Shown: positions 2,897 through 21,614 of the stretch, one piece after another | How positions within the stretch are numbered: the first letter of the stretch is position 1 | Layout: each line of letters begins with the position of its first letter | Assembly (NCBI GenBank): GCA_018268415.1 | Contig: JAFDWO010000036.1 | Location: forward strand, 1 to 64,000 | Direction: 5' to 3' | From: Actinomycetota bacterium | GTDB lineage: Bacteria; Actinomycetota; Thermoleophilia; Solirubrobacterales; 70-9 | Length of the DNA stretch: 64,000 bases | Made by a program: the position numbers and the translations under genes | The notes under the pieces: generated by a model | Told to the model about the DNA's origin: nothing | The model's database searches: none | What the model saw: only the letters and a program-made list of their open reading frames with translations

Positions 2897-2926
2897 AATT
2901 TGTCGGCGGCGGTTTAAACCACAAGC

Positions 2927-2955: not shown

Positions 2956-2961
2956 GAATCT

Positions 2962-3249: not shown

Positions 3250-3255
3250 ATCCAA

Positions 3256-3845: not shown

Positions 3846-5105
3846 CTAGCCCGCCGGGCCGTCAATCTCAAATGGCCAGTCGAGGCTCGCAAGCTGGGTT
3901 GGTTGCAGCTGACCGTTGTCTTGGAACGCGAGCTCCAGGCGCTCGTTCAACCATTCGATTCCGGCAGGTGCCAGGCGCACCGCAGCCGACTGTCGGATCG
4001 ACCTCCGCGGATCGGTATTGCCTGAACCGGACTTGAGATTTTCAGCCGTCGAGGCGAACGCGTGGGGACCGAGTTCATCCATCAGCTCGACCAAGGAGAC
4101 CCCGTCTCCCATCGAGCCGTCGAGGAATTCTCCGTCGTGCACCCTTATGTAGTGCGGCCAGTCCTTCTTCCATGGTCGTCTGGCGAGATCCGCCGGGGAA
4201 GCATCGTCGCGACCCTTCTCGTAGCGCTGCCCGACCGCCCGGCCGAAGATCATCGTGTCGTTCGGACTGTGAACGAGTCTGGACATGAACATCACGGCGC
4301 CGTCTTCGACGGACCGCGGGCGCTTGTTCCTCGGGTAGGTGCACGCCCAATGACAGCCGCCGCTGCTCAGTTCGTCCAGCACGAGGTAGTCCCGAAGCGC
4401 GCGGTTGTCGCTCTTGCCGAAGAACTTCACGAACGCCTGCGGCGGCTCGTCGAACAGGGGAGGGAGCTGCGGAAAATCGAGCGCCCCCACCACAGCGCCC
4501 TCGTCGCCGAGCCCGGCACCTGCCTGGGAGGCGCCGGGGATCGACTGGGCCTCGATTCGTCCATCCCACTCGTCCAACTTCGGGATCGTCAGATTGGGTC
4601 CCGCCCCCTCCCATAGCTGGTCGAAATAGGAGGCACACCGCTTCGGTATTGCTCCGCCTTCCGCGACCACGCCCAACTCATGGTTTTTTCGCAGGCCCGC
4701 TTCGGTCATGTTCGCCGAGGTGATGACGGCCTGTTTAGAGTCGAACAGATAGAGCTTTGCGTGAAGACGCTTTACTCCTCGCACTTCCGCACCACGCTTG
4801 ATCAGACGCCGCAGGGCCGAGGTGTCGGAAACCCCGTCGCGAAAGTTGTCGAGGTTGAATCGCGTAAGAACGCGGACCGACGAGCCCGACCCGGAGAAGA
4901 GCTTCTCTACTGCGCCGTCCTTGATGAAGGGGCTGGCGATCCTCACCTCAGCGACGTCGTCGCCGAGCGCCGCCTCTAACTCCTGCCACCATCCCCCATC
5001 GACCAACCGAACCGTCATTAGCTCGGCTATCCAATCCTCGCTCTGGGCCTCGCCATGGAATTCGAGTACACCATCGGCGTCAGTCCTCTCGTCCGTGATC
5101 CTCAC
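3846..5105 (-). CDS. PLD-family nuclease with C-terminal EVE/PUA-like domain
   Basis: The protein is 419 residues. The N-terminal half is phospholipase D-like: the HKD motif is HAKLYLFD (His115, Lys117, Asp122), followed by TSANMT and an acidic NHELG. Only one HKD is visible, so activity would require a dimer, as in bacterial Nuc and restriction-type PLD enzymes. The second half (about 235-370), with FGRAVGQRY and KDWPHYIRV, resembles EVE/PUA-like domains that read modified bases; this assignment is weaker. It is the last gene of a three-gene minus-strand operon and overlaps the upstream zincin gene by 26 bases. The context suggests a nuclease effector of a defence module. DrmC of DISARM is also a PLD protein, but the other DISARM genes are absent. 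Confidence 0.75.
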   Translation of the reverse strand: MRITDERTDADGVLEFHGEAQSEDWIAELMTVRLVDGGWWQELEAALGDDVAEVRIASPFIKDGAVEKLFSGSGSSVRVLTRFNLDNFRDGVSDTSALRRLIKRGAEVRGVKRLHAKLYLFDSKQAVITSANMTEAGLRKNHELGVVAEGGAIPKRCASYFDQLWEGAGPNLTIPKLDEWDGRIEAQSIPGASQAGAGLGDEGAVVGALDFPQLPPLFDEPPQAFVKFFGKSDNRALRDYLVLDELSSGGCHWACTYPRNKRPRSVEDGAVMFMSRLVHSPNDTMIFGRAVGQRYEKGRDDASPADLARRPWKKDWPHYIRVHDGEFLDGSMGDGVSLVELMDELGPHAFASTAENLKSGSGNTDPRRSIRQSAAVRLAPAGIEWLNERLELAFQDNGQLQPTQLASLDWPFEIDGPAG

Positions 5106-5844
5106 CGAGTGCGGCGGCGGCGGCCATGCCGAGGTATTTGGTCAGCACCGACTCGAAGAATCTGGTGGCGTCGACAGCGCCGGTGGTCGCGTGCGCGGCC
5201 TCATGGAGGAGCGTTCCGCCATAGCTCTCGATCGAAGTCAGCTGATCGCGCTTGATGACGATCGCGCCCAAGTTGGAGTCCCAGACCCCCTGGGTGCTAT
5301 CGAGGCCGACCCGCATCGTCTCCGAGATCAGAACCTCCGGAGAGGAGTCGGTCTCGATTCCGATCAGCTTCATCAGTACGGGCGTCGCGTCAAACACTCT
5401 GCGCTCGTGCGCCGCTAGATCATCGACCCCGACAAACTCATATCGGAAGCTTTCGTTGTACTGCTCGAGGTAGCCCTCAAGCGTCCGCAGCTCGGTGTCG
5501 CCCTCTTCGACTTGCCGTTCGAGCTTCGCCTTCTGAGCGTCATCGACGGCCACCACTTCATAGCCGTCCTGCCGCATGTTGTCGACCACGTCGGGGTGAA
5601 GGCGCATCTCTTCCTCGGTGAGATAGGTCACCTCGGAGCGCGCATGGAGCAGGTTTAGCGCCCGCTGGGAGATCTCGATCCACTGCATCTCATCGCACTG
5701 GTTGCCGCGCGCTCTTGCGGCGACCTGATCAGCCAGCGCCTCGGTGACCGTCTCTGACTGAGCGGATCTCAGAATCGCCTTGACGCGTTCGGCATAGGTC
5801 GTGCGTCCTACGTTGAGGCGCTCCCGATTGAGCCGCTTCTTCAT
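5080..5844 (-). CDS. Zincin-like metallopeptidase domain protein (HEAAH)
   Basis: The product is 254 residues with a zinc-binding HEAAH at 214-218 and a candidate third ligand Glu231 in RFFESVL. The rest is helical and partly charged, without a signal peptide, so it should act in the cytoplasm. Its ATG overlaps the stop of the GHKL ATPase gene by 4 bases. Its N-terminus (MKKRLNRERLNVGRT) reads like the middle of a protein rather than a beginning, as if the two genes once made one ATPase-peptidase polypeptide. It may cleave a toxin or sensor protein in response to the ATPase. Peptidase activity is inferred from the HExxH motif alone. Confidence 0.6.
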   Translation of the reverse strand: MKKRLNRERLNVGRTTYAERVKAILRSAQSETVTEALADQVAARARGNQCDEMQWIEISQRALNLLHARSEVTYLTEEEMRLHPDVVDNMRQDGYEVVAVDDAQKAKLERQVEEGDTELRTLEGYLEQYNESFRYEFVGVDDLAAHERRVFDATPVLMKLIGIETDSSPEVLISETMRVGLDSTQGVWDSNLGAIVIKRDQLTSIESYGGTLLHEAAHATTGAVDATRFFESVLTKYLGMAAAAALGEDHGRED

Positions 5845-6485
5845 CCCTCGGTGAGACTCGTGATGTTGTACGAAAAGAGAAAGTTCTTCTCTTCGCTGGC
5901 CAAGACGCCGCTGATGTAGACCCGGGCATCCCAGGGCCCTTTCCGGAGAACCTCGCCATACGCGGTCCGCTCGATTATCTGCTCACCGGAGAACCGGAGG
6001 AAGAGCGCCTTCGCCTTCGCCACGTCTTCCTGATCGACTCCGTCGAGAAGAACTTCCGTCCCGGCCATGCCGTCGATGCCAGGGGATCGCTCGACGTGAA
6101 GGGTCGTGATCCCCTCGAAGTTGTGCTTGTGGGCCTCGCGCAGCCTGAAGGTCCCGTGCGCGGAAATGATGGTCACACCGACACCCCTGCGGTAGAAGGT
6201 GGCCAAGGCGTCCTTCAGACCTACGCCGAACTTCCCGATCACTCCCTCAGGCGCCTGGAGCTTCTCGACGTTTTCGCTGAGGGTGAAGTGCTCGATCGAC
6301 AGTCCGCGACCGAAATCGCGGACGCGGCAGACAGCCTCGGCGCCCTCGTTGATCTCGACGTCGGCCGTTGAGGTCAGCAGTTGCTCGTCGAGCGCGTTGG
6401 CGATGAGCTCGCGGATGCCGTGCTCTATCTCCCAGTGCTCAAGGACTTCTTCGATGTTCAGGTCAAAGAGCTGGGGCTCCGACAT
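5841..6485 (-). CDS. GHKL-type ATPase (MutL/Hsp90/MORC-like fold)
   Basis: I start this gene at the ATG complementary to 6483-6485 (MSEPQLFDLN). The longer open frame would run into the divergent SIR2 gene. The 214 residues hold the Bergerat ATP-binding fold: N-box ELIANALDE (Asn30), D57-FGRGL, and the lid GKFGVGLKDAL (84-94). No transducer or kinase receiver domain is present, and the protein ends where homologues would be expected to continue. The next gene overlaps it by ATGA and may supply the missing half. GHKL ATPases recur in prokaryotic conflict systems as ATP-driven switches. The 132-bp divergent spacer to the SIR2 gene must carry promoters for both directions. Confidence 0.78.
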   Translation of the reverse strand: MSEPQLFDLNIEEVLEHWEIEHGIRELIANALDEQLLTSTADVEINEGAEAVCRVRDFGRGLSIEHFTLSENVEKLQAPEGVIGKFGVGLKDALATFYRRGVGVTIISAHGTFRLREAHKHNFEGITTLHVERSPGIDGMAGTEVLLDGVDQEDVAKAKALFLRFSGEQIIERTAYGEVLRKGPWDARVYISGVLASEEKNFLFSYNITSLTEG

Positions 6486-6617
6486 GAATGCACTCTTACA
6501 CCAAATCGCTTCACCGAGCCGTTCTTGCTGTCCACTGCAATTTTCACTTAGCATCTGGCAGATGGCTCGGCAGGGCAATCGCAGTCGAATCGATGGTGCG
6601 GGAAAGCTGGCGATCCG

Positions 6618-8168
6618 ATGAGCATCCGCGTCATGGAAGTAGGCCGCCAGAAGACCTTGCTGGCGCATATCGGCGAGGCGGTGAAGCTCAGTGCCGAGGA
6701 GGTCGAGCGGATCGGCCAACTGGCGAAGCAGCTACATGACAAGGCCGTCTTGCCGGTGGTCGGAGCGGGCGCCTCCCATGACTGCGGCGTACGGCTCGCG
6801 AAGGAGATCGCTGGCGACCTGTTCGAGGCCTACAAAGAAATGCTGGCCCCAGAAACTGTCGATCCCAACATTCCTCGCGAGGACTTGGCCCGGATCGCGG
6901 ATGCGATCTACCTGAAGGATGGAACTCAGAGTCGGGTGGTGAAGGAGCTGGGGATACCCGACCCGACCGTATGGCTGCCGGCAGAGGAGATGGGTCCGCA
7001 CTTTTGCGTCTATTCCGTGCTGGCGCGGATGGTGCGGGAGAGGATCTTGGTGGATGCCTTCGGATTCAACTATGACTGTGGCGCCGAGGCTGCTCTCTGC
7101 AGCGAAGGAATCGCGACCGGTGATGTCAAGCCCGGGCAGCAGTGGATAGACCGGGCCCGGATCGTCGCCGACCCTGCAACCAACACTGATTTCGTCATGA
7201 ACAAAGGTTCGTTCACCCTCTTTAAGGCCAACGGCTGCGCCGCGAAATATCGCGAACTGGCAATTCGGGATGAGCCGAGGGCGGCCGAAACGATCGTCGT
7301 CCGAACGGAGCAGATCAACAGCTGGAAGGAATCCGGCTGGAGCCTCAATCAGTTTCGGAGTCGCGCCGAGAACCACATCCTTCTCTTGATCGGATTTGCC
7401 GCCGAGGATCCAAAATTCTCAGTCGAGTTGCGCCAGGTGCTGAAAGGCGTTTACAAAGCGGCTCCAAAGGCCGAGGGGCCTCGCGTGGTGGCGATCGACA
7501 GGGCCAAACAAGCGCTTGAAATCGACGGGCTGATCAGGGACGGGTTGAATGGCTCGCCGCCGGCTGACGGTGTCGTCACCAGGATCCGCACGGAGGGGTC
7601 GACGTCGACCGCCGCTCTGTCGCTGCTGTTGACGGAGATGCTGGCGCTCGCCTTGAGCGATCCGCTGGAGCGCGAAGGGGCGACACTGCCGAGCGAGGTC
7701 GATGCTCGCTTGGCGCTGCTCACGGTGAGCGCGCCGGCCATGCGCAGATGGTCCTACTTGGTGGATTCGGGAAGTGGGAGTCTCATCCAGCGAGCAAATC
7801 AGATCGCGCGGCGCGGCTACGTGCCGTTGACCCACGTCCCGGAGGTGAGCGCGCGCTCGATCGTCGCCCGTCGCGCGGTGCGGCAACGCCTTGGACAGCC
7901 TGAGATCGAGAGCGCCGAGGAAGCCGCGAGGGACCATGGCTTTCTCGTAGACCGACGCTACGGCGTGGCGTACATGCCTATCGGCATTGACCATGACACT
8001 CTCACTGCCACCTGTCGTCCGGGCTCTGAACTCGAAATGGTCAGGTCCACTTTGAGCGACATGTGCCCGCCAAGGCTCGGTTGCATCCTCGTCTCCGGAG
8101 ATGGAAGCGAACTGCGAGGCGTGAACCTGCAGACCGGGAAGGAGGTGAGCGATGGGCAATTTGACTGA
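6618..8168 (+). CDS. SIR2-like domain protein (putative NADase effector)
   Basis: This 516-residue protein has a SIR2-type Rossmann fold. The nucleotide motif is GAGASHDCG (49-57), the FNYD motif contains Asn151, and IGFAAEDP (about 257-264) matches the GFSxxDP signature of defence SIR2 proteins. At the place of the usual KxHG catalytic histidine the sequence is FKANGC, with Asn205. The C-terminal 220 residues are not recognised and may bind its partner. The next gene, an ABC/SMC-type ATPase, overlaps by 17 bases. SIR2 effectors paired with SMC-like ATPases occur in Lamassu-type systems, where NAD depletion kills infected cells. The start codon has no strong Shine-Dalgarno sequence, so it is uncertain by a few codons. 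Confidence 0.75.
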   Translation: MSIRVMEVGRQKTLLAHIGEAVKLSAEEVERIGQLAKQLHDKAVLPVVGAGASHDCGVRLAKEIAGDLFEAYKEMLAPETVDPNIPREDLARIADAIYLKDGTQSRVVKELGIPDPTVWLPAEEMGPHFCVYSVLARMVRERILVDAFGFNYDCGAEAALCSEGIATGDVKPGQQWIDRARIVADPATNTDFVMNKGSFTLFKANGCAAKYRELAIRDEPRAAETIVVRTEQINSWKESGWSLNQFRSRAENHILLLIGFAAEDPKFSVELRQVLKGVYKAAPKAEGPRVVAIDRAKQALEIDGLIRDGLNGSPPADGVVTRIRTEGSTSTAALSLLLTEMLALALSDPLEREGATLPSEVDARLALLTVSAPAMRRWSYLVDSGSGSLIQRANQIARRGYVPLTHVPEVSARSIVARRAVRQRLGQPEIESAEEAARDHGFLVDRRYGVAYMPIGIDHDTLTATCRPGSELEMVRSTLSDMCPPRLGCILVSGDGSELRGVNLQTGKEVSDGQFD

Positions 8169-10716
8169 GCGCGTCTTGCATCATCTGAAGAAATCTGGTT
8201 TCAGCGTGCGTGGGGGCGGTGCGAGGCCCTTCGGGGAGGAACTACCGCTGGTTACCGGAACCGCTTGGGAGAGCGGGACGGCGCAGCTCGCCCTGTTGGC
8301 GGAGGGCCGCGGTGATCTAGATCTGGCGCCGTGGCAACAGTTGCTCTTCGCTGGTTCCGGCATCCGCCACCAGCTGACGGCAGAGGATGTGTCGGCGTAC
8401 GGAACCCCGGTAATCGTTGCGATCGTCGATGAGCAGGCCGCAGGGAGACTTCGCGAGTTGGCCGAGACGCTGGCGGAGGACTACGCCGTGTTCAGCCGGG
8501 TTGACCTGACCATGGTTCTGGAGACCGACATTGGAGTTCCGGAGCGGCTCGATGACGCACTCGCTCCACTGTTGCCTCGCTGCCGGCGAATCCTCAAGAG
8601 CGGAGGCGAAATCTCCCGGAAGGAGGTCCAACGCTTCTGGGGACTGTTGGAAACCGAGGTCAAAAGAGCGGCCGACGAACTCGACCCCGCGTTCGGTGCA
8701 CACCGGGCCACGGCGGGGCGCGACGGCGCGCGCAAATTGGCCGAGGTCAGCCCAGGGGCTTCGGAGCTGCCCTCACCGACTCCGCTGCGAAACATCTCCA
8801 TCAAGCACTTCCGGTCAATCGAGTTGTTGGGAATCGATCTTGCGGACGTAAACGTCGTACACGGACCGAACGGCAGTGGCAAGACGTCATTGGTCGAGGC
8901 CATGGAATTGGCGTGGGCGGGAACCTCCGAGCGTCGCCCGCCCGACGTGGCGTTGGAGGAATATTCGGCCCACCTGCCTCGAGGGGGTAGCGGCAGCTTC
9001 TCGATCGCCGTTGACGGGAAGCAGGTGGAGGCTCCGGTGGACGACCCCCGCGCCGCGCTAAGCCGATGCGTATTGACGCACGAGGCCATGTCGAGCCTTG
9101 CGAGCGAGTCTCCAAAAGATCGCTTCGGTGCTCTGCTTGAGATCACCGGATTGGAGATCCCGGACGTCAAAGCGCGCACGGAATCGCTAATCCGTGAAAG
9201 CAAGCGGAACGCTGATGAGATGCTTTCGAGAGCAGGGTTCGCCAATTTGCGGGCGACCAACGCCGTTGCCCTTAAACACCTCCGAGATGAACTGCGGTCC
9301 GACTTCGCGGAGCGGATGACAGCACTGCCGGACGTAGCGGCCATCGAAGAGGCGCTCGGATCGATTTCCCGAGGGGCCTTCCAAATCAGGAAGTGGAAGG
9401 CCGAACCTCGAGCGTTCAAAGCATTGATAGCTGCAGACGAGGTCGTTTCGCGAACCGCGGATCTTCGCGCGGGAACCTCAGAAATCGCGCCCGTCTTCGA
9501 CGACGCCATCAGTGCAGTGGATGAGTTGTTGGCCGAACGCGAGGCTGCGGCCGCAGCCTCGCGGGCGTTGTTGGAGCAACTCCGAGAGCAATTTCAGGCC
9601 CAGCGCGAGGCGAGCGACCCTGAGGCCGACGTCGCGGGATCCGAGATCGACGCCCGCAAGGCACCGATCGGGGTCGAGGTAGCGGCTCGCTGGTTGGGTC
9701 ATTCCGAATCACTGACTAACGCTGCTAAACAGTTCCGGGCGGACGCAGCAGGCGTCCAGGACGAAAAATGGGCCGAGCTCCTGCGTTCCTACGCGGCCGC
9801 GATCGAGCACGCCGCTCAGCTGGCCCCGGTCGACGGTCTACGTGAGTTAAGCCGACCCGCCCCACCTCAGATCCCGCTGAAGCGGGTGACGGTCGATCCT
9901 GGAGTCCAAGGAGCCGCAGGCTTCAGCACCGATCCGATCGAGGCAGCAACGGTAGGCCCGGTATTGCGCGAGCTGGCGGACGCATTGGACACCCACCTTA
10001 TGGAGCTACGGAGCATCACTCAGCGGCTCGAGCGTCATCCTGCTCGGGAGTTCAGCCAACACGCGGATGCGTTGATGCAGGTGCTGTGTCAATTCGAACT
10101 GGCGCGCACCATCCGGCGTGAGGGACCGATTCTTCAGGCCAGTGAAACCCTGGTCAGCGAACTATTGGACGAGCGCCTGGCGCCCGTGGTCCGGGAGCTT
10201 GTCGCCGCCATCGTTCGCTTCGATTGGTACTTCCAGCCACTGAAGATGTCGAGCGGATCGCGCAAAATCGTGCTCGGGGGTCTGGCGACGGATCGAGAGG
10301 ATCTCGACGCTCGGTTGCTGCTCAATTCGGCCGAGCGGACTGTGTTGGGCTTGTCCTGGTTTTTGGCGCTCCATATGCTTCAGCCGAGTGAGGAGCGTCA
10401 GGTCCTCGTCCTCGACGATCCGACTGCCGTTTTCGACACCAGCAATACGGCCGGATTTGCCAGCACGCTGAGGGCTTTCACCCGGCTGCTGAAACCGAAA
10501 CAGGTCGTGATCGCCACTCACGACGATCAGGTCGCGGCCATGCTGGCCGAGGAACTTGCAGACGTCGACGGCTGGCCGCAATCCGTGGCTCGCATCCGGT
10601 TTCGCCGAAACGCACAAGATTGCAGCGAGGCAATCAAGGAGTGGACGGCCAGCAGCGATCGACGAGTCGACCGGGAGTCGGAGCAGCTCGGGCTTGTGGG
10701 CGAGATCGCAGGCTAG
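8152..10716 (+). CDS. ABC/SMC-like AAA ATPase (RecF/SbcC type), Lamassu LmuB-like partner of SIR2
   Basis: The protein is 854 residues. Residues 1-210 form an unrecognised N-terminal domain. From about 215 (ISIKHFRSIELLGIDL) an SMC/RecF head begins, with Walker A GPNGSGKTS at 238-246. The centre (about 320-640) is helical and probably coiled coil. The C-terminal head has Walker B VLVLDDP (about 751-757) and the switch VVIATHDD (about 785-792). No zinc hook is seen. It is expressed with the SIR2 gene (17-base overlap). In Lamassu/ABC-3C systems such ATPases sense unusual DNA ends and release the effector. The extra N-terminal domain might be a fused middle component; that is speculation. Confidence 0.78.
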   Translation: MGNLTERVLHHLKKSGFSVRGGGARPFGEELPLVTGTAWESGTAQLALLAEGRGDLDLAPWQQLLFAGSGIRHQLTAEDVSAYGTPVIVAIVDEQAAGRLRELAETLAEDYAVFSRVDLTMVLETDIGVPERLDDALAPLLPRCRRILKSGGEISRKEVQRFWGLLETEVKRAADELDPAFGAHRATAGRDGARKLAEVSPGASELPSPTPLRNISIKHFRSIELLGIDLADVNVVHGPNGSGKTSLVEAMELAWAGTSERRPPDVALEEYSAHLPRGGSGSFSIAVDGKQVEAPVDDPRAALSRCVLTHEAMSSLASESPKDRFGALLEITGLEIPDVKARTESLIRESKRNADEMLSRAGFANLRATNAVALKHLRDELRSDFAERMTALPDVAAIEEALGSISRGAFQIRKWKAEPRAFKALIAADEVVSRTADLRAGTSEIAPVFDDAISAVDELLAEREAAAAASRALLEQLREQFQAQREASDPEADVAGSEIDARKAPIGVEVAARWLGHSESLTNAAKQFRADAAGVQDEKWAELLRSYAAAIEHAAQLAPVDGLRELSRPAPPQIPLKRVTVDPGVQGAAGFSTDPIEAATVGPVLRELADALDTHLMELRSITQRLERHPAREFSQHADALMQVLCQFELARTIRREGPILQASETLVSELLDERLAPVVRELVAAIVRFDWYFQPLKMSSGSRKIVLGGLATDREDLDARLLLNSAERTVLGLSWFLALHMLQPSEERQVLVLDDPTAVFDTSNTAGFASTLRAFTRLLKPKQVVIATHDDQVAAMLAEELADVDGWPQSVARIRFRRNAQDCSEAIKEWTASSDRRVDRESEQLGLVGEIAG

Positions 10717-10939: not shown

Positions 10940-13900
10940 TTGCCGATCGAAATGTCCTCGTCCTCAGTCCGAGACAAATCCCTTCAGCTCGCTGAATCCG
11001 TAGCCAGGTACCACGCGGGCTGCCTGCGGGTGATCGGAGCCCAGAACGTGGCCCTCCGTGATGTCAGGACGACCAAAAAAGCGGCGCTCTGCGTCGACGT
11101 CGGCCAACTCGCCGAAATAGAGAGCGTCCTTTCGAACGGACAGCAGGTCATCGTTGCCCCCGAGGTCCCCGCGAAGGACGCCAGCGAGGAGGAGATCGCT
11201 GAATACCAGAGCTGCCAGCTCGCATGGGAGCGCCTGCGCGAACTCAGCGCCAAGGCGGCGGTCGAGAGGCACGCGAAAGAGGTCGTCTACGGCGGCCCGC
11301 TGTTGATCGGCTACCTGAACAAAGCGCGGGGCCGCTCGATGGATCCCGTCCTGGCTCCCCTCTTCATGCAGGCCGTCTCCCTGCGGACCGACTCTGACGG
11401 CTCGGTGGTCGTCACCTCGAGCGACGAGCCGCCTCGATTCAACACCGTCCTCTGGAAAGACGGAATAGGAGCGGAAGACGTCACCCAGATCGTCAATCTC
11501 GGGATCGAGGCCCAGGCCGATCTGGCACCGGGCTGGGACCCGGCCCGAGCAGCCGAACTCCTGAAGGCCGTCGCCAGTATCTGGCCGAGCCTGGAAATCG
11601 GGGAACCCGACCAGTCCCTGCACCCGTGGCCCCAGATGGTGCCCGCGGGCGAACGTCCTGATCGTCCCAGCCTCGCTCTCCACGACGGCGGCGTCCTCTT
11701 CCTGGCGAACCGCTCCTCGCCCTATCTGCTCGCCGACCTGGAGTCGATCGCAGCCGATCCCGGGAGTGTTGTCGTCCCGGACAGCCCGCTCTCGGTCCTC
11801 CTCGAGCCTCCGTCGACGGAGGACCGGCCCGAAGCCAGGGCACCTCACGTCGAGGAGGTCGTCTATCCGTTCCCGTCGAACGGCGCACAGCGGCAGGTCG
11901 CTGACGCCCTCGAGAAGAACGACCTCGTCGTCGTGCAAGGCCCCCCGGGCAACGGCAAGAGCCTGACGATCGCCAATCTTGCCTCGCATCTGGTCGCCCA
12001 GGGCAAGAGCGTCCTCGTCTCGAGCCACAAGCCGCAGGCTTTGACTGTCGTACGTGACAAGCTCGACGAAAGCGGCCAGCGGTTCCTCTTCGCCTCGCTG
12101 ATCGGCGATGGTGCTGCGGCAAAGCGGGTCTTGCAGGGGCAGATTGCCGACGTCAAAGCCTTCGCCGCCCAGGCCGATCGTTCATCCCTTTCCCGCCAGC
12201 TCTGGGAGATCGAGGAACGCCGCGCGGCCAAAGGCGACCGCTACCGGGAGCTTCGGGAGCAGTTCATCGGAGCCGCCGAGCCAGACCAGGAGGACGCCGC
12301 GCTCAAATGGGAGGACTTCGGCGGGCTGCCGACGCTGCCCGTCACCGACAAGCCGGTCGACACCGCCAAGCAGCCAGTCGCGGCGGCGGCGCTTCGACGT
12401 CTCGACGAGATCGTCCGCGAACACACGGCGGTCTGGGCTCGACTTCGCGGCTCCGCGGTCGCGGATCTCAAATCCATCGAGGAGCAACGCCAGACCCTCG
12501 GCCAGTTCGTCGACCAGCAGACGGCGCGTGTGGTCGCGGGTACCGATCCGGCGGTGGGAGCCTTGGTGGCCGCCTTCCACCCGGTCGTCGATGCCCAGCC
12601 TTCCGAGTTGGCGGAGGCCCGCAGGGCGTCTGGAGAGATCCGGTCGAGCCTCGTTGTCGTCCTCGGGGCCTCCGAACAGCGAGAGGCGGCAGACAGGCTC
12701 GCGGAGTCTCCGGACCTGCTGAGTGATGTCGAAGGCGGCGCCGACTCGCTCGAGGCCGCTTTCGCCGATGCGAGGGACCTGGCCCCATATCGCGATGACG
12801 TGAGTGCCGAGCCTGTAAGGCGCGGTCAGGTCGTCGCCCAGCATGCCCAGTTGGGTTCGATGCTGAAGCGGCGGGCGGCCCGTCGATGGCTGGACGAGTA
12901 CGCGCCCGGGGCCGCCGGTGTCTCGGAGGAGCAGGTCGGGAAATGGGCGGCGTTCTGGGACTCATGGAGCCGCGTGCGGACGATCACCGACGGTCTCGCC
13001 GGCGGCCTCCGTGCCGAGATTCCCGAGCGGTTCGACCCGGATGCGGTGCAAAGCGTCCTCAGCGCGAGTCGCCGCGCAATTGACCGGGCTAAGGCGATCC
13101 GTGAGGTCCGGGAGGCTGCGCGGACGACGAGGGTTCCGCTCCCGATCGAGGATGCTCTCGAGGCCACGGCGCAAGGAGATCTCGACGATGTCGTCCTCCG
13201 TTGGGAGAGGGCTCTCTCGGCATGCGAGGCCGACCAAGCCGGGAACGCGCTGAAGGAACTCGACTCTCTCTCGTTCCTCGGAGGCGACGCCGTGAAGGTC
13301 GATAATCTGCTGGACCAGGCTGCCTACGCCGAGGCCGACGAGATCCTGGACCGGTTACGGGAAATCCGCTCGGCGCTCCCAGGGTTCCAGGAGCGGCGAA
13401 GCCTCCTTGATGGCGCTCTCGAGAACGTGCCTGGCGCCGCCGACGAAGTCGAGTCATGCGGAGAGGAGTCGGACGCCCCGCCATCCTGGTTCGGCGACAT
13501 CGAGCTCTCGCTCGCTGTGCATCCGTCCGTGGTCAGGTTCGCCGAGGTCTCGGACCAGCCCAGCACCGGTGATCTGGCGTCCGAGCTCTCTGCGTTGGTC
13601 GACGACATCGTCGACGACGCGGGTAGGTATCTCGGGCTGCGCATCCAGGAGCGGATCCTTGACGGCTTCCGAAAGCCCTCGTTCCTGTCCAGCCTCGAAG
13701 GCTTCCGCAAGGCGATCGGGGCCTCGGCCAAGCGCTTCGAGCGCTTCGAGGAGCTCAAAAACTCACCCGACTTCGACATCGACGTCCTCACCGACGTCTT
13801 CCCCTGCTGGATCATGCGCCCGGAGGACGCCTGCCGGGTCTTCCCGTTGAGACCAGACGTCTTCGACGTGTTGATTGTCGATGAGGCCTCGCAGTGCAAC

Positions 13901-16309
13901 CCGGACCAGGCCCTTCCTCTGTTTGCCCGGGCCTCAAGGGTCGTCATCGTCGGCGACGACAAGCAGCTCTCGAACGAGGACCTCCGCCGGACCCTCTCCG
14001 CCACGGCGAATCAGACGCTTCTCCAGCAGGCCAAATTGGACACTCGTGATCCGGCCGGCTATTTCGATCAGACCCGCAACAGTCTGCTCGAGCTTGCGTC
14101 CAGACGCCAGCAGGCATCGGTCCTGCTGAACGAGCATTTCCGCTGCCGGCCGGAGCTGATCGCGTTCTCGAACGCCCGCTTCTACGGGAACAACCTGACT
14201 GTCATGCGCGACCGCATGGACGACCGGGGCCTGGGCTCGCCGCTACTGGTGAGGCAGGTGAGCATCGACGAACCGACTCCTACCGGCCGAGGGGTGAAAG
14301 TGAACTACTCCGAGGCGGAGGCGCTGGTCGAGGATCTACAGCGACGCCTCGACGATCCGCGCTACGATGGGATGACCTTCGGGGTGTTGTCGCTCTTCCG
14401 CGAGCAGGTGGAGTACATCGAGACGCTGATCGAGCGGCGGATAGGGGGAGGCGAGCGCGAGGAAAGAAGGCTGATCTGCTCGACCGTTGACGGCTTTCAG
14501 GGCGACGAGCGGGACGTGATCCTCTACTCATGGCGCTATACGGCGGCTGACCACCCGGCGGTCTTCGCGTTCACGAACGGCGGCGGCGGCGAACAACGGA
14601 TCAATGTTGCCCTCACCCGTGCCCGCCATCAGGCCGTCCATTTCGTGAGCGTGCCGATCGAGGAGTTTCCGATGAGCGCGGCCAACATCACCGGCTACCT
14701 CAGGCACGCGGTCGACCCTGAGGTCCTGCTCGAGCAGGCCGAAGCCCGGGTGCATCGGGAACCGGAGGGTCGAGCCCGTAGGAACTTGGCCGAGGCGCTG
14801 GCCGATGCCGGTCTTAAGAACGCGGAGAACTACGTTGCCTGCGGCGTTAACGCAGACCTTGTCGCAAGCGATGTCTCCTCGTCGAAGAGGGCCGCGGTTC
14901 TCGTCGACGCCGAGCGCGATCCGCACCGCCCGCCGGACACGCCGGAGAGGATCGACCAGCAGGCATTGCTCGAACGCGCTGGCTGGGCCGTGGTCCGGAT
15001 CCCGGCCACCGAGGTGCTCTCGAGCCCGGAAGTCTCAGTGAGGAGGGTGCAGGAGGCCGTGGCCCGGGGGCAGGTGGTCCCCTCGGCGGATTTGACCGAG
15101 GAGAGCAGGACGCTCGTAACCGTCGACGCTGCAGGTCTACCCGTGCCCGAGGACCTGCTCGATCTCGACGTTGAGATTACGCCGGAGGACCGGGCGGATT
15201 ACAACTGGGAGGTTCCGCCGGTCGAGACGCGATTGGCATCGGGGGAGCCGGTATTCATGTCCGACTTTGAGAAGGACCTCTTCTCCGAACTAACCCAGGC
15301 GGGAGGCGCTGACCTGAAGGTCGTCCCGCAGTGGCCGACCCGCAACAAACAGATCGACCTCGTCCTGACCGACAGGCGAGGAGGGAGACTCGCCGTCGAA
15401 GCGGACGGCGCGCAGCATCACAAGACGCCGACCGGCACCTTCATCCCCGAGGACGTCGAGCGCCAGGCCCTACTGGAGGAAGCCGGTTGGGTCTTCTGCC
15501 GGGTTGACCACTCGTCCTTCGCCAAGGATCCGGACTCCGAGGTCCGCAGGATTCTGGAAGCGCTGGCGACGCAGCCAGAGAACGCAGGCCTCGCGGAGTT
15601 GGTCTGGGGAGATGGAGGAGTGGCGGACGCGATGGCTGTCCCGGCGGACGTTGCTCCGGCCGACCTTCCTGATGCGACGCCGCCATCGGTTCCACCGGAC
15701 CCCGTCGAGGCCAGCAGCTCAACGGAATCAGCCGATGGGGAGCCTGGGACGAAACGTTCCGTGGAGCCGACTCGGAAACCTGCAGACCAGGCCCCGAGCC
15801 CATCTGGTGTCGATGCGGAGGAGGAGAACGGTCCCGCGGATCCGGCCTCAGTCACATCGCAGGCGAATGGCGACCGTGGAGAGGCAAGCCTCAGCTTCGA
15901 TGACCTGCCACTGGGTCAGGTCGCACAGCTCGTGACCGGCGTGGTCGAAGCTCTCGGGGAGGTCCCTGACCATCGGCTGCCAGACGCGTTCAGCGAGCAC
16001 GTTGGGGTGCCGCTGAAATTGGGTGAGCGAAGGACGGTCGTCCGGTTCGCCTGGACCGCTAAGGGCAAGAAGTGGCTCCAGCTTGAGGATGAAGTGTGGC
16101 GGCCGGGAGTCGGCCCCGGTGAAGCCGATGAGGCCTGGGGGATCTGGACGATGAGCGCGATCGTCGATCGGGCCCGCCAGCTTGCTTCCCAGGATGCGGA
16201 CCCGTTCGGGCCTCTGCTGGCAGAGGTGTATACGGGCCACCGCACCCCAAAGCTGGCGTTGAGCCTTGTCGGGACTGCTGTCAACAGGGCGAAGAAGGAA
16301 CGCGAGTAG
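10940..16309 (+). CDS. Giant SF1 helicase (UPF1/DNA2-like) with two C-terminal Vsr/DUF559-like nuclease domains
   Basis: The protein is 1789 residues from TTG 10940; ATG 10952 gives an almost identical product. Residues 1-310 are an unknown N-terminal region. Walker A QGPPGNGKS is near 333-341. A helical insertion of about 600 residues follows, then motif II DEASQCNPDQ (near 978), motif III GDDKQLS (near 1006), NEHFRCRPEL, VDGFQGDERD (near 1183) and motif VI NVALTRAR (near 1221). Two repeats of a restriction-endonuclease fold follow. The first (about 1268-1370) is degenerate. The second (about 1438-1545) has IDLVLTD and VEADGAQHH. An acidic Pro/Ser linker leads to a C-terminal domain (about 1650-1780). 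It is the first gene of a four-gene operon. COG1112 helicases with nuclease domains are typical of phage defence. Confidence 0.83.
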   Translation: MPIEMSSSSVRDKSLQLAESVARYHAGCLRVIGAQNVALRDVRTTKKAALCVDVGQLAEIESVLSNGQQVIVAPEVPAKDASEEEIAEYQSCQLAWERLRELSAKAAVERHAKEVVYGGPLLIGYLNKARGRSMDPVLAPLFMQAVSLRTDSDGSVVVTSSDEPPRFNTVLWKDGIGAEDVTQIVNLGIEAQADLAPGWDPARAAELLKAVASIWPSLEIGEPDQSLHPWPQMVPAGERPDRPSLALHDGGVLFLANRSSPYLLADLESIAADPGSVVVPDSPLSVLLEPPSTEDRPEARAPHVEEVVYPFPSNGAQRQVADALEKNDLVVVQGPPGNGKSLTIANLASHLVAQGKSVLVSSHKPQALTVVRDKLDESGQRFLFASLIGDGAAAKRVLQGQIADVKAFAAQADRSSLSRQLWEIEERRAAKGDRYRELREQFIGAAEPDQEDAALKWEDFGGLPTLPVTDKPVDTAKQPVAAAALRRLDEIVREHTAVWARLRGSAVADLKSIEEQRQTLGQFVDQQTARVVAGTDPAVGALVAAFHPVVDAQPSELAEARRASGEIRSSLVVVLGASEQREAADRLAESPDLLSDVEGGADSLEAAFADARDLAPYRDDVSAEPVRRGQVVAQHAQLGSMLKRRAARRWLDEYAPGAAGVSEEQVGKWAAFWDSWSRVRTITDGLAGGLRAEIPERFDPDAVQSVLSASRRAIDRAKAIREVREAARTTRVPLPIEDALEATAQGDLDDVVLRWERALSACEADQAGNALKELDSLSFLGGDAVKVDNLLDQAAYAEADEILDRLREIRSALPGFQERRSLLDGALENVPGAADEVESCGEESDAPPSWFGDIELSLAVHPSVVRFAEVSDQPSTGDLASELSALVDDIVDDAGRYLGLRIQERILDGFRKPSFLSSLEGFRKAIGASAKRFERFEELKNSPDFDIDVLTDVFPCWIMRPEDACRVFPLRPDVFDVLIVDEASQCNPDQALPLFARASRVVIVGDDKQLSNEDLRRTLSATANQTLLQQAKLDTRDPAGYFDQTRNSLLELASRRQQASVLLNEHFRCRPELIAFSNARFYGNNLTVMRDRMDDRGLGSPLLVRQVSIDEPTPTGRGVKVNYSEAEALVEDLQRRLDDPRYDGMTFGVLSLFREQVEYIETLIERRIGGGEREERRLICSTVDGFQGDERDVILYSWRYTAADHPAVFAFTNGGGGEQRINVALTRARHQAVHFVSVPIEEFPMSAANITGYLRHAVDPEVLLEQAEARVHREPEGRARRNLAEALADAGLKNAENYVACGVNADLVASDVSSSKRAAVLVDAERDPHRPPDTPERIDQQALLERAGWAVVRIPATEVLSSPEVSVRRVQEAVARGQVVPSADLTEESRTLVTVDAAGLPVPEDLLDLDVEITPEDRADYNWEVPPVETRLASGEPVFMSDFEKDLFSELTQAGGADLKVVPQWPTRNKQIDLVLTDRRGGRLAVEADGAQHHKTPTGTFIPEDVERQALLEEAGWVFCRVDHSSFAKDPDSEVRRILEALATQPENAGLAELVWGDGGVADAMAVPADVAPADLPDATPPSVPPDPVEASSSTESADGEPGTKRSVEPTRKPADQAPSPSGVDAEEENGPADPASVTSQANGDRGEASLSFDDLPLGQVAQLVTGVVEALGEVPDHRLPDAFSEHVGVPLKLGERRTVVRFAWTAKGKKWLQLEDEVWRPGVGPGEADEAWGIWTMSAIVDRARQLASQDADPFGPLLAEVYTGHRTPKLALSLVGTAVNRAKKERE

Positions 16310-16324
16310 GCGCCGCATATCCCC

Positions 16325-16957
16325 ATGCCTTCCCCCAGCGAAAGAGACGAGAACATCTGGTTCTCCAGATTTGGCGATATTCCAGGCATAAGCTGGAGTT
16401 CCTCGGGCATCGACAGATCACGTCTGCCGGGGCACGACGCGAGACCGGAACCGTCAAGTTACGACGGCTCTGACTGGTGGCCGATGATCGGCAGCGATGA
16501 GGAGGGAGAGACGAGCGCCACTCCCGCCCAGCAGTACAGGGACGGTGACTTCGGCGAGGCCAAGACCGTCGACGAGGTACTCCAGCAGCTCGGTGAGGCA
16601 CTTGAGCTTCCAGGGAACCCGTCCGACTACCACTTCCTGATCGCGGCGGCCCAGGAGCGCCTCTGGAAATTCCGATTCCGGGAACCGAAGGCCCTTGCCG
16701 AGATCGAGCGACTCTGTTTTCTCGACATCGAACTCGTGCGGGCGCGACCAGGGATCATCGCTCCTTACCGGGAGGGAGAGCCGACCCTCCATATGGCCGT
16801 ATTCGAGTCTCTCAACCGGTTGTACTCCAAGGAGGGGTATCTGACTGAGCTCCAGGAAGTGCAGCGGATGGCGGTCGAGGAGTTCGGCCAACGGAAGGGG
16901 CCGCGCCTGGACGAGGTGCAGGAACGCCTGGTCGTGTTGGAGGCCGAGGATGCTTGA
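16325..16957 (+). CDS. Hypothetical 210-residue protein of the helicase operon
   Basis: I do not recognise this protein. The first 85 residues look disordered and polar (Ser, Gly, Asp, Trp-rich, with SDWWPMIGSDEE). Residues about 90-205 are mostly helical, with PSDYHFLIAAAQERLWKF and LHMAVFESLNRLYSKEGY, compatible with an all-alpha adaptor domain. There is no signal peptide, membrane segment or metal motif. It lies 15 bases after the SF1 helicase gene and overlaps the SF2 helicase gene by 8 bases, so all three are translated together. A bridging or regulatory subunit between the two helicases is a reasonable guess. Confidence 0.75.
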   Translation: MPSPSERDENIWFSRFGDIPGISWSSSGIDRSRLPGHDARPEPSSYDGSDWWPMIGSDEEGETSATPAQQYRDGDFGEAKTVDEVLQQLGEALELPGNPSDYHFLIAAAQERLWKFRFREPKALAEIERLCFLDIELVRARPGIIAPYREGEPTLHMAVFESLNRLYSKEGYLTELQEVQRMAVEEFGQRKGPRLDEVQERLVVLEAEDA

Positions 16958-19007
16958 GACTCCTCACACTGGGCTCGGCGCGGACTCCTTCCTCGAGTAC
17001 GCCTTCCTGAGGTGGGTGCTCACGCCGGCGACCCTCCCTCAGATCGTGGCGCGAGTGGAACCGCAGGCCGCGGCCACGATCGGTGAGCGCCACTACCGTC
17101 TCGACTACGAGATCGTCGGCGACGAGCAACGTGTCGCGGTAGAGCTCGACGGGTTCCAGTTCCACTCATCACGTGGAGCGTTCACCTACGACCGGCTGCG
17201 ACAGAATGATCTCCAGGCCAGCGGCAGGTCGATAGTGCGCTTTTCCTACGACGCGATACGGACGGACGTCGGTCGCTGCGTCGCCCAACTGCAGGCGGTG
17301 CTCGCCCTCGACCCTTCGCTGGCCGCTCTCCTTGTCAGCTCACCCGTCCTCGAGACGCCCGAAATGGATCCGGATCCGATCCACGCTCTCGCGCCTCCAC
17401 CGGGCGCAGCCGCCGGTGGAGATCAAGATGACTATTTCGCCTCGGTCGCCGAGCAGCTGAATCAGGCGACCCTCCGGGACTGCCAGTCTGAGGCGTTCGC
17501 GGCGCTCGCCAACTACTACGGCGGTGGCGGGAATCGAGCGGCGTGCGTGATGGCGGTCGGGGCGGGGAAGACCGCGCTCGGCGTTGCCGCGACCCTGGCC
17601 TTTACCCGCCGCCGGGCGATGGTCGTGACGCCCGGCAGCGTGATCCGTGGGACCTTCGACCGGGCCTTCGACCCCGAAGCTCTCGGCAACGTCTTGAATG
17701 GTTTGCCGGGCGGTCCACTGATCCCGGGCCAAGCCCCGCCACGCGTTCTGACCCTCGATCGTAATTTCGGTCCGATCGGGGAGGTCACCCGAGAGGAACT
17801 GCTTGCGAGCGACGTGATTGTCACGAACTTCCACTCCCTGGGAGACGGCGAATCTCCGGGCGACCTACTGGCGAAGATCGATTCCGGAGACGTCGATTTC
17901 ATCGTCGTCGACGAGGCCCACATTGCCGCCGCCGATTCCTACCAGCGGACTTTCGCCCACTTCGCCGACGCGCGCACGCTCCTGATGTCGGCCTGTTTTC
18001 AGCGACTCGACGGCAAACCGATCGACGCAGACGTCGTATACCGGTACCGGTTGATCGACTCGATCGTCGACGGCAACGCCAAGAACCTTCGGGTGCATCG
18101 CTTCGCTCCGGACGTCGCCCAGACGACCTACGAGATGGTCTGGCCCGACGGCAGCCGTGAGGAGATCGTAGGCCGCGACGCGCTCCTCGAGCTCCTCGGG
18201 GACGAGCGGAAGCTTGCGCGGGTGACGGCCAAATCGACCGAGCCGATGCGCCAGGTGATGAGGGTCGTCCGGGACGCGCTCGAGGGTCAGGCGGCTCTGC
18301 TCGCGCCCGTCAAGCCGCGCGTCCTCTTCTCGGCTCTCGGCGAGCTCCATGCCGCCCAGATCGCAGAGGTCGCCAACGAGTTCGGCATCCCAGCGGCACA
18401 TCTGCACCACAGCATGGGGGAGGCCCAGATACGCGAGACGAAGGCTCGCTTCGAATCCGATGCCGGGAATCTGCAGGCACTCGTCCAGCTGAAAATGCTC
18501 GGCCAGGGATACGACTTCCCGGCGATCTGCGTCGTGGTGCCAATGCGTCCGTACGGAAGCTTCAGCGAGTGCTACCAGTTCATCGGCAGGGGAATCCGGG
18601 TGATCCAGGACGTGCGACTCGCTGGTCAGGTGGCCCCCGCGGAACAGATCCTCGACGTTGTCTACCACGCCGAGTTCGGCATCGACGACCACATCGACAC
18701 GATCTATGCGGAGAACGACATGGATCCGCTGATCGAGCAGATTGAGGCCGACGACGAATCCCATGGAGAAGGGGAGGTGGCCGGCGACGGGGGCGCATAT
18801 GGGCAACCACAGGCAGAGGCGTTCGTCCTCTTCGAACATGGCACGGTGGAGGAGCGGATCGTGCACGGGCCTGAACGGATCGAGCAGGCCCGTATTGACC
18901 GCGAACGCCAGGCTCTCGCCCAGCGCTACGCCGACTATGTCCGAAGCACGGAGAGCCCGGTGAGCTTCGAGCAGTACGCCTCGATCATCGGAGCTCTGGG
19001 GTCATGA
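16950..19007 (+). CDS. SF2 helicase with N-terminal DUF559/Vsr-like nuclease domain
   Basis: The protein is 685 residues. The N-terminal 125 residues are a restriction-endonuclease-like domain: YRLDYEIVG and VAVELDGFQFH give the D-x(n)-ExD core with a following His, and the domain ends in IVRFSYDAIRTD. The SF2 motor follows: motif I AVGAGKTAL (about 202-210), motif II VVDEAHIAAAD (about 320), motif III LLMSACF, and motif VI QFIGRGIRV (about 542). This is the layout of type I/III restriction helicases and COG1061 proteins. The nuclease domain is of the same kind as in the SF1 helicase two genes upstream, so both motors carry related nucleases. The stop overlaps the next gene by 4 bases (ATGA). 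Confidence 0.82.
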   Translation: MLETPHTGLGADSFLEYAFLRWVLTPATLPQIVARVEPQAAATIGERHYRLDYEIVGDEQRVAVELDGFQFHSSRGAFTYDRLRQNDLQASGRSIVRFSYDAIRTDVGRCVAQLQAVLALDPSLAALLVSSPVLETPEMDPDPIHALAPPPGAAAGGDQDDYFASVAEQLNQATLRDCQSEAFAALANYYGGGGNRAACVMAVGAGKTALGVAATLAFTRRRAMVVTPGSVIRGTFDRAFDPEALGNVLNGLPGGPLIPGQAPPRVLTLDRNFGPIGEVTREELLASDVIVTNFHSLGDGESPGDLLAKIDSGDVDFIVVDEAHIAAADSYQRTFAHFADARTLLMSACFQRLDGKPIDADVVYRYRLIDSIVDGNAKNLRVHRFAPDVAQTTYEMVWPDGSREEIVGRDALLELLGDERKLARVTAKSTEPMRQVMRVVRDALEGQAALLAPVKPRVLFSALGELHAAQIAEVANEFGIPAAHLHHSMGEAQIRETKARFESDAGNLQALVQLKMLGQGYDFPAICVVVPMRPYGSFSECYQFIGRGIRVIQDVRLAGQVAPAEQILDVVYHAEFGIDDHIDTIYAENDMDPLIEQIEADDESHGEGEVAGDGGAYGQPQAEAFVLFEHGTVEERIVHGPERIEQARIDRERQALAQRYADYVRSTESPVSFEQYASIIGALGS

Positions 19008-21343
19008 GCACCGGCGAGCTGTCATTCGGCCGGAAGTTCCGCGAGGCGGATGGGGTCGATGCCCGACTCGGGCTCGAGCGCGAGGACCAGCGGCGAGGAG
19101 AGCTTGGCGCCGTCGACACGATCCTCGAGAAAGCGCTTGTCCGTGCCTTGGTCGGCGAGCGCGTTGTCAAGCTCGGCGAGCGACAGGACGACGAGGGCGT
19201 CGAGCTCGTCGGGTTCGAGGAGGGCGAGATCGCCACCTTGAACAGCCACTTCGACGTCGAGACGATGGAGAGTCGAGGGGCATGGGCACTCCCCGAGCGG
19301 GAGACCATCGTCGGCGGGACGGTGAACCTCGCGTGGTGGATGGGCCAGGAGGCCCGATTCGTCTCCAGTCTCGCCGGAGACGAACGGCGCAAATCAACCC
19401 TCCGGGAGAACCCCGGTGCTGTTTTTGTCTGGTCGGCACTCGCCCCCGTTTTCGAGGTCCTCGCAATCCCGCACGAACTCCGCTCGGCGAAAGTCGGGAA
19501 GGCCGATGTTGACGCCCAGGAGAAGCGCTGGGCGGAGCTCGACCTTCTACTGGATGCCTGCGAGATGGAAATGACCGACGCGCTGGCGCCGTTCCGCCCT
19601 CGCGGAGGTTGGCCCCACATGTCGGCCTCGGAGCGCACGGCTGCCCGGCTTGGTCTAGTAGCGGCCTGGAAGCAGAACGCAAGCGCCGAGGCGGCCGCGA
19701 GGCTTCGGATGTGGTCAATTGGCGGCCTGGTCGACCGGTTCTATTCGAAGGCAAGAAAGTCGACGCCGAACAGCCGTCAGGTGATGACGAAAGTCCATTG
19801 GCGCCCACTCGTCGCCTACTTCGGTGGTGACTGGTTGTCCTTCCTTCGCTATCTCGGCGAGGAGCCGTCGGCCTCTGAGGAAATTGCCACTTCGCTGCCT
19901 GAGCCGCGGCTCTACGTCGCCGGGGAGGAGCGTGCGAAAGCTGCGGCCGAGGCGGCGGGAGTCGATTCGGCTGAGCTCGAACTGATGCTTTCTTCCTTCT
20001 TCGGCGGGGGCGATCCCAGTTCGCCGGTCGAGCGCAGAGTCGAGGTCCTGAAGAAGACCTGGGCCGAGGTGGATGGCCTGCATGCGGCGCAGGTCCCAGG
20101 TGGGCAGAACATGTGGGGCCTTCTCGACGAGCGAGACGACCCGTTCGACGACCGATGGGATGGCTACGTCTTCGGTCTGCATCGCCAGCTTCTCTCGCCC
20201 GAGTTGAACGAAGAGATCAACGGTCAGTGGGGCACGAGCGTCATCGGGCGGGCGCCCGATCGTCTGGTGACCAGGATTCTCCCCCACGCCGGTGCTCTTG
20301 ATGCATTGGGACCCGCGCTTGCGTTCTGGCACACGATCAGCCTCGCTGCGTTCGGCAACACCGAGGGTCTTACCTATTTCGACTATGGCCTCGTCGACAT
20401 CGCTGGCAAGTACACCGACGAACTCGACGCGATGGAGGCTCTGGGGCATCCGGTGGACCGCGTCTTCTTCAAGGATCTGACGGCCGCCGCGCATCGCCTT
20501 GGAGAGCCGGAGGGAGCCGGGGGCGAGACCACCAGTCATGAGGTCGCGCCGGGGATCTCGATCGAGCTCACCGTTAGCGGAGGGCAGCCGCGAGGGCGAC
20601 GCTCCGGGTTCGAGCAACTCCGAGACGTCGTCACCGGGCATCGTCGCGCATGGGCTGCCGAGCATCTCGATGGCTATCTGAAGGCCCGGTGGGAAGCAGA
20701 TCTACGCGGAGGGGCGGAGGCGTTCAACCGTCGCCTCCAGGCGAAAGGCAAACCTCCGACCGTCAAACAGGTGATCAGCGAGTCGAAGCCAACTATCGAC
20801 CGATGGTTCGGGGGCGATGTAGGAGGGTTCCTGGGTTCGATAGGCCAAAAGGGGCCAGCCGGTAGCCCTACCTACGAACGAATTATGCCCGAGGACGTCT
20901 ACGCATTCGGCGAGGCCGTGCATCGAAATCTCGGACTCGTCGAGGTTCCTGAGGTCAGCGATTGGCAGGACACCGCAGCCGTCAGCGCACACAACGCGGC
21001 GAGACAGCACAACAATTACCGGCATTACGCGGCCGCGAATGCGTACGAGTATGTGCAGAGGTGGGAGGCGCTGGGGCGGAAGCCGGAGATGAAAGAGGTC
21101 CCCGGGGGGAAAGGCGCGATGAAATGGCTCAACGAGAACAACCTGGACGCTGCCTGGCGTCAGTTCGCAAAAGCGATCGACGACGCCATTCACGCCGCTG
21201 AGCCGGTACAGATCCGGAGGGCCGATTCAGCTGGGACGCCAGCGCCGAATTCCGCGACGGAAGCCGAGGATCCGAAATCACTAGATTCGCCGTCGCCGAG
21301 CCAGCCCGGGAAAGGGCTATTCCGCCGACTGCTCGGACGATAG
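19004..21343 (+). CDS. 779-residue protein with homing-nuclease-associated (HNR-like) repeats
   Basis: I recognise no overall family. At least two segments share a pattern: NSRQVMTKVH and YFGGDWLSFLRYLG (about 252-287), and GKPPTVKQV with RWFGGDVGGFLGSIG (about 580-612). A weaker third is LGRKPEMKEV (about 690). The pattern (G-x-P-T, helix, FG-x-W/D, helix, LG) resembles the small HNR DNA-binding repeats found beside HNH and homing nucleases. Between them lie long helical, acidic stretches. The C-terminal 45 residues are a Ser/Pro-rich linker ending in a basic tail (GLFRRLLGR). It starts inside the SF2 helicase stop codon and is the last operon gene, 200 bases before the right island junction. 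It may be the DNA-recognition subunit of the system. Confidence 0.75.
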   Translation: MSTGELSFGRKFREADGVDARLGLEREDQRRGELGAVDTILEKALVRALVGERVVKLGERQDDEGVELVGFEEGEIATLNSHFDVETMESRGAWALPERETIVGGTVNLAWWMGQEARFVSSLAGDERRKSTLRENPGAVFVWSALAPVFEVLAIPHELRSAKVGKADVDAQEKRWAELDLLLDACEMEMTDALAPFRPRGGWPHMSASERTAARLGLVAAWKQNASAEAAARLRMWSIGGLVDRFYSKARKSTPNSRQVMTKVHWRPLVAYFGGDWLSFLRYLGEEPSASEEIATSLPEPRLYVAGEERAKAAAEAAGVDSAELELMLSSFFGGGDPSSPVERRVEVLKKTWAEVDGLHAAQVPGGQNMWGLLDERDDPFDDRWDGYVFGLHRQLLSPELNEEINGQWGTSVIGRAPDRLVTRILPHAGALDALGPALAFWHTISLAAFGNTEGLTYFDYGLVDIAGKYTDELDAMEALGHPVDRVFFKDLTAAAHRLGEPEGAGGETTSHEVAPGISIELTVSGGQPRGRRSGFEQLRDVVTGHRRAWAAEHLDGYLKARWEADLRGGAEAFNRRLQAKGKPPTVKQVISESKPTIDRWFGGDVGGFLGSIGQKGPAGSPTYERIMPEDVYAFGEAVHRNLGLVEVPEVSDWQDTAAVSAHNAARQHNNYRHYAAANAYEYVQRWEALGRKPEMKEVPGGKGAMKWLNENNLDAAWRQFAKAIDDAIHAAEPVQIRRADSAGTPAPNSATEAEDPKSLDSPSPSQPGKGLFRRLLGR

Positions 21344-21541: not shown

Positions 21542-21589
21542 TGGAGCTAGGCGGATTCGAACCGCCGACCTCCTGGGTGCGATCCAGGC
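21542..21589 (-). repeat. Right island junction (attachment site within tRNA-Ala)
   Basis: This segment of the tRNA gene, from its 3' end to the anticodon stem, is the partner of the direct repeat at 2710-2757. Because the intact tRNA remains here, integration restored a functional gene at this end and left the truncated copy at the other. Confidence 0.85.
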
Positions 21590-21614
21590 GCTCTGCCAGC
21601 TGAGCTATAGCCCC
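21542..21614 (-). tRNA. tRNA-Ala (anticodon CGC)
   Basis: Read on the minus strand from 21614 to 21542, the sequence folds into a 73-nt cloverleaf. The acceptor GGGGCTA pairs with TAGCTCC (one G-T pair), the D arm is GCTC/GAGC, and the anticodon stem CCTGG/CCAGG holds loop ATCGCAC, whose anticodon is CGC (alanine codon GCG). The T arm is GGCGG-TTCGAAT-CCGCC and the discriminator is A. The CCA end is not encoded. The 3' half, bases 21542-21589, is repeated at 2710-2757, marking this gene as the integration target of the island on its 3' side. Confidence 0.93.

Follow-up and report, generated by a model that had tools for sequence, protein, structure and literature searches.

A candidate DNA-degrading defence module on a tRNA-Ala island, with a two-gene core that recurs beside different DNA-processing partners

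Gabija, DISARM and SIR2-HerA are multi-gene defence systems that combine a helicase or ATPase with a nuclease. Type I, III and IV restriction enzymes pair an SF2 translocase with a nuclease, and the single-gene defence models Hhe, ProA and PDC-S37 contain a split SF1 helicase core with an adjoining nuclease region. In archaea, NurA-HerA and Mre11-Rad50 act in DNA end resection (PMC5715905, PMC4351679). A connection of Ter (TerY-P) modules with systems for DNA restriction and processing has been described (Anantharaman et al. 2012, cited by PMC11090510). We analysed a 64-kb stretch of DNA (the window), in which four co-directional open reading frames on the + strand form a cluster, A to D:

10940 to 16309, + strand: gene A, 1789 aa; SF1 helicase with one degenerate and one intact Vsr/DUF559-type nuclease; a local addition
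16325 to 16957, + strand: gene B, 210 aa; TPR-like helical protein; adjoins D in the loci inspected
16950 to 16957, + strand: overlap of B and C, 8 bases (translational coupling)
16950 to 19007, + strand: gene C, 685 aa; N-terminal Vsr/DUF559-type nuclease and SF2 helicase
19004 to 19007, + strand: overlap of C and D, 4 bases (ATGA)
19004 to 21343, + strand: gene D, 779 aa; predominantly helical protein without a family match

The four genes lie where an earlier note on this DNA put them, and the two overlaps that it gave were exact. A known named system was rejected as the identity of the cluster: PADLOC, NCBIfam, Pfam and PHROGs reached no further than the helicase and nuclease regions of A and C, and no named system covered the four genes. 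Relatives of parts of Gabija, DISARM and SIR2-HerA are present in the same islands; however, none of these systems has homology to B or D or covers all four genes, and the DISARM core genes drmA and drmB had no match among the island genes scanned (for the SMC-like gene, among the best 25 of 103 matches). Gene C is, as the note described it, an SF2 helicase with an N-terminal nuclease of the kind found in A. A DUF559/MTES_1575 domain is followed by ResIII/Helicase_C, with intact helicase motifs (VGAGKT-203, DEAH-321 and GRGIR-546) and an intact nuclease ExD (VELDG at 64). Although C shares the translocase-nuclease pairing of restriction enzymes and weakly matches the mREase_IV and restriction-subunit R models, its nuclease is of the DUF559/Vsr kind, and its partners B and D are missing from those systems. 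The mREase_IV model matched only residues 311-553 of C (E=3.5e-10), which falls short of the motor and modified-base reader of type IV restriction. A methyltransferase domain, as in type I/III restriction-modification, was absent among the island genes scanned, and the window island has no recognisable specificity subunit.

This mobile island is an 18.8-kb low-GC segment that holds A-B-C-D; at each border stands one copy of an exact 42-bp repeat, in direct orientation, of the 3' end of tRNA-Ala(CGC):

2710 to 2751, - strand: left att footprint, identical to the last 42 nt (3' end) of tRNA-Ala
2752 to 2930, no strand assigned: non-coding island end that is conserved and, in other members of the family, adjoins 3' fragments of tRNA-Ala
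21542 to 21614, - strand: intact tRNA-Ala (CGC), the 3' 42 nt of which (21542-21583) are the right att copy

The GC content is 64.0% in the island and 71.3% in the rest of the window. Besides the cluster, the island contains genes for a TacA-type antitoxin and an adjacent candidate GNAT-type toxin, for DrmC-type PLD and GHKL proteins, and for a SIR2 protein paired with an SMC-like ATPase; no integrase was recognised in it. The earlier note was right about the tRNA island and about its SIR2/ATPase and GHKL/PLD modules, and the exact repeat sharpens the bounds.

We searched 84,980 species genomes for C and identified three close relatives (L011, L012 and L013). Nine loci with D were inspected (the window, L011, L012, L013, L015, L016, L026, L027 and L031). 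B and D are immediate neighbours in every one of the nine, and the partner of the B-D pair is C in six, Mre11-Rad50 in one, NurA-HerA-Mre11-Rad50 in one and no obvious gene in one. Gene orders outside the window include the following:

L011, Polyangiaceae UTPRO1 (Myxococcota): B directly upstream of C, D directly downstream
L012, actinobacterial MAG AC_59, same genus as the window: B directly upstream of C, D directly downstream
L013, Micromonospora endolithica: B directly upstream of C, D directly downstream
G246: NurA-HerA-Mre11-Rad50-B-D, without C
G607: B-D-Mre11-Rad50, without C
G290: B-D without an adjacent motor, converging on a PLD-domain gene

The arrangements in G246 and G607 emerged from searches with D. 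The B-C-D order without A is found in Polyangiaceae, the same-genus MAG and Micromonospora endolithica, and also on Streptomyces plasmids. The D gene of Streptomyces NBC_01230 has an interrupted reading frame in the N-terminal part, and in Nonomuraea B adjoins a fragment of C. A-B-C-D as one conserved unit was ruled out, as A is missing from the other five B-C-D loci. The idea that the four genes might recur as a unit in other genomes therefore failed: B-C-D recurs without A, and the fixed unit is B-D. For the same reason, one motor of each helicase superfamily, which had been put forward as what sets the cluster apart from named systems, does not define it, even though no named system covers the set.

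Where relatives of C have B and D as neighbours (Myxococcota, Micromonospora and Streptomyces), they are 62-66% identical. When four loci were compared pair by pair, both within the genus and between phyla, C identity was 63.7-65.6% throughout; B and D are far less conserved among those loci, with ~30-42% identity for B and 32-37% for D. Because C is ~65% identical in every pair, even within the genus, we conclude that it has spread horizontally; such uniform identity does not look like vertical inheritance. The faster change of B and D is compatible with a recognition role, without proving one. A phage origin was rejected: D had no match among 50,697 phage records and none in IMG/VR, and the phage matches to C were generic helicases with 25-26% identity among the matches listed.

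In G246, where HerA-NurA together with Mre11-Rad50 is the operon partner of B-D, the stop codon of Rad50 overlaps the start codon of B. HerA matches PDB entry 7f6d, a solved bacterial HerA-NurA complex, with E=6.5e-101, and NurA matches chain 7f6d_H with E=3.6e-12; Mre11 and Rad50 were identified by Pfam. The window has DUF559 helicase-nucleases in the place of this machinery. Translational coupling of B-D to a complete NurA-HerA-Mre11-Rad50 operon, along with the presence of B-D beside Mre11-Rad50 alone in G607, would be expected if B-D were an accessory of double-strand-break repair by end resection, with C and A as alternative resection helicase-nucleases. We grant a repair role a minor share of probability because Mre11-Rad50 and NurA-HerA are repair enzymes; yet the module is rare and patchily distributed (of 232 genomes in the window's order, 4 gave strong D-profile matches, E<1e-80), has spread horizontally, is located on an att-bounded island and on plasmids, and has defence-type neighbours, all of which make such a role unlikely. 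Other B-D loci adjoin Gabija-like, GmrSD-like, PD-Lambda-3/Aga_HEPN-like and PLD genes. To our knowledge, none of the HerA-NurA operons described so far includes homologues of B or D. A literature search found none, and it found no matching TerD, SbcCD, HerA or DUF559 defence operon.

The window copies of B and D had no match in Pfam, PADLOC, NCBIfam or PHROGs, which bears out the description of B as a 210-aa protein of no family. Based on alignments built without plasmid-derived rows, AlphaFold2 predicted a C-terminal TPR-like helical bundle in B (pLDDT 77.1), which also has weak TPR and PPR matches, and a predominantly helical structure for D (mean pLDDT 75.5). The D model matched nothing in PDB or BFVD at E<=0.001. 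Within D there is a weak internal repeat, ~205-300 against ~535-625 (hhalign E=2e-5, probability 77%). D had been described as a 779-aa protein with HNR-like repeats; the length is correct. PF18780 (HNR) matched one of nine D homologues, below its cut-off (18.9 bits vs 26, E=0.0019), and the other eight gave no match, which does not confirm the repeats. Candidate D matches in G142, G107 and G777 were dismissed as short (80-130 residues) and weak, and the N terminus of the G142 open reading frame looks like an unrelated oxidoreductase.

The D proteins differ at their C-terminal ends. A short basic tail recurs, as KGLFRRLLGR in the window, KGPLNRLLGR in G607 and GVLGRLLGRR in Micromonospora, and the Micromonospora protein ends in DUF2510. 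In G607, an in-frame TGA precedes the conserved tail by a short distance (L031 8900-9016, - strand); a sequencing error, a recent nonsense mutation and read-through are all options. In both Streptomyces D proteins (L026 and L027) the C terminus is a TerD domain (E=1.1e-23 and 5.3e-24). Together with the link between Ter (TerY-P) modules and DNA restriction and processing cited in PMC11090510, this domain might indicate a TerD-linked response to chemical or envelope stress with a DNA-processing arm. We regard this as highly improbable, given that TerD occurs in only two of nine D proteins and is absent from D and the rest of the cluster in the window, and that further ter genes are not annotated in the Streptomyces neighbourhood read.

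The recurrence of the B-D pair with different DNA-cutting machines suggests an undescribed modular anti-phage or anti-plasmid system. We consider it probable that the A-D cluster is a DNA-targeting, DNA-degrading defence module on a site-specifically inserted island, with B-D as its fixed core. The reading as an undescribed defence system in the earlier note thus agrees with the lack of a named match, the presence of B-C-D across phyla and the defence-island contexts; its four-gene grouping does not survive. Because B-D is invariant and the motor-nuclease is exchangeable, recognition and coupling would likely be the task of B-D, and DNA destruction that of the partner. As neither B nor D has a homologue of known function or a significant fold match, the roles that we propose for them draw on linkage and inference. 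Most likely, D would recognise either a phage-dependent state or DNA that is foreign or abnormal; B would be a TPR-like adaptor that couples D to the DNA-processing motor. In the window, C would be the effector, with its SF2 motor translocating and its N-terminal Vsr/DUF559-type nuclease cutting DNA, and in other genomes Mre11-Rad50, alone or with NurA-HerA, would take its slot. From this exchange we infer a shared outcome, in which DNA is processed or degraded from ends or forks: Mre11-Rad50 and NurA-HerA are end-resection machines, and among solved structures A is nearest to UPF1, SEN1 and Dna2, so the partners appear to share this kind of processing.

More tentatively, with a little less than an even chance of being right, B-D may be the portable recognition and coupling core of an undescribed immune family, plugging into unrelated end-processing machines (DUF559 helicase-nucleases, Mre11-Rad50 and NurA-HerA); a single sensor would then turn repair-type motors on invading DNA. 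Helicase-nuclease defence is of a known kind; the core proteins and the exchange of partners are new to every library searched. If this proposal is true, the conserved part of the family would be a two-protein core without recognisable relatives and not an enzyme, and bacteria would redirect the end-resection machinery of Mre11-Rad50 and NurA-HerA to immunity via a shared adaptor. It would also make it possible to test how a nuclease-motor comes to attack foreign instead of host DNA, and two protein families would have been wholly missed by the defence annotation libraries searched.

Gene A contains AAA_11/AAA_12 (SF1) and REase_MTES_1575/DUF559 domains; it is a UPF1/SEN1/Dna2-type SF1 helicase, with PDB matches to SEN1, UPF1 and DNA2. 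Its helicase motifs are intact (GPPGNGKS-334, DEAS-981, GDDKQL-1005 and ALTRA-1224), and a long insertion splits the catalytic halves (Walker A at 334, DEAS at 981). The helicase and the C-terminal Vsr/DUF559 nucleases had been described correctly, but only one nuclease copy is intact: copy 1 (~1286-1385) has lost the ExD glutamate (VDA in place of ExD), whereas copy 2 (1443-1542) retains ExD (VEADG at 1486). The helicase core scored 227 bits with PDC-S37, 262.6 bits with ProA and 148.2 bits with Hhe, and A shares the split SF1 core and adjoining nuclease region of these single-gene models. However, the whole-protein NCBIfam cut-offs are far higher (262.6 vs 1500 for ProA and 148.2 vs 2000 for Hhe). 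In addition, the copy at the canonical Hhe/ProA nuclease position is ExD-degenerate in A, an extra intact copy lies ~150 residues downstream, and A sits upstream of B-C-D.

Among the nine D loci, A is present in the window alone, and no A-like gene was found within ~9 kb upstream of B-C-D in L011, L012 and L013. Because B-C-D recurs without it, A, a relative of Hhe/ProA/PDC-S37, was added locally. The gene starts with a TTG codon (an in-frame ATG is at 10952), is probably co-transcribed with B-C-D and is probably an added Hhe/ProA-like effector; it might serve as an accessory effector or form an independent system in a shared operon. The chances seem evenly balanced that A is a stand-alone system of the Hhe/ProA/PDC-S37 type and B-C-D a three-gene system of its own, functionally unconnected with A, an explanation that concerns only the place of A and fits the best explanation for B-C-D. 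Such independence would agree with the other B-C-D loci, which lack A and begin with B, with a helicase core closest to single-gene defence models, and with a spacing of 15 bases between A and B instead of an overlap. On the other hand, A and B share a strand across this short gap, in which inspection found no convincing terminator, and the nucleases of A and C are of the same family. Furthermore, no stand-alone orthologue of A was found, as its first ~280 residues had no match in 121 genomes of the order (query, N-terminal 520 residues). A also had no match in IMG/VR.

The other island genes form groups of their own. Just inside the left att footprint (2803-3786) are a TacA1-type antitoxin and a partner that is a GNAT-type toxin by position; in G727 (L106 7967-8774) an almost identical pair adjoins an att footprint, as if it belonged to the element backbone. 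The DrmC-type PLD gene (3846-5105, - strand; PADLOC E=8.9e-114) is downstream of a gene for a 254-aa hypothetical protein and a GHKL-ATPase gene (5080-5844 and 5841-6719, both - strand), and the three genes are possibly a separate module. At 6618-10716, a gene for a SIR2-like protein (516 aa) overlaps one for an SMC/RecF-like ATPase (854 aa); the ATPase partially matches mad3 and LmuB, and the two-gene module has no named-system match.

Exact 42-bp footprints of the tRNA-Ala 3' end were also found in genomes of the genus and family (L079, L085, L094, L098, L100, L101, L104-L107 and L109), usually followed by the conserved ~150-bp non-coding end, with about four within 45 kb of G727. The pattern resembles that of islands being added in tandem at a single tRNA family. 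In relatives G727 and G286, cargo at the same footprints includes SIR2-HerA, a C-5 cytosine methylase, E2-E1-JAB-patatin and a ResIII helicase, and toxin-antitoxin genes are also among the cargo beside such footprints. The G286 locus (L109 1510-6083) encodes a 1140-aa fusion of Prok-E2_A, ThiF (E1), JAB and patatin, preceded by a gene for a 384-aa hypothetical protein, and may represent ubiquitin-conjugation-like defence cargo. The same att footprint and island end are present in G1029 with no A-D cargo in the 15 kb read. A search of relatives for an empty site recovered the left flank of the window but no clean site joining both flanks. Beside this left flank, at 1774-2031, is an 85-aa open reading frame that resembles the start of dihydrolipoamide dehydrogenase, and DNA 97% identical to this region is found at G000:C149:6622-6873.
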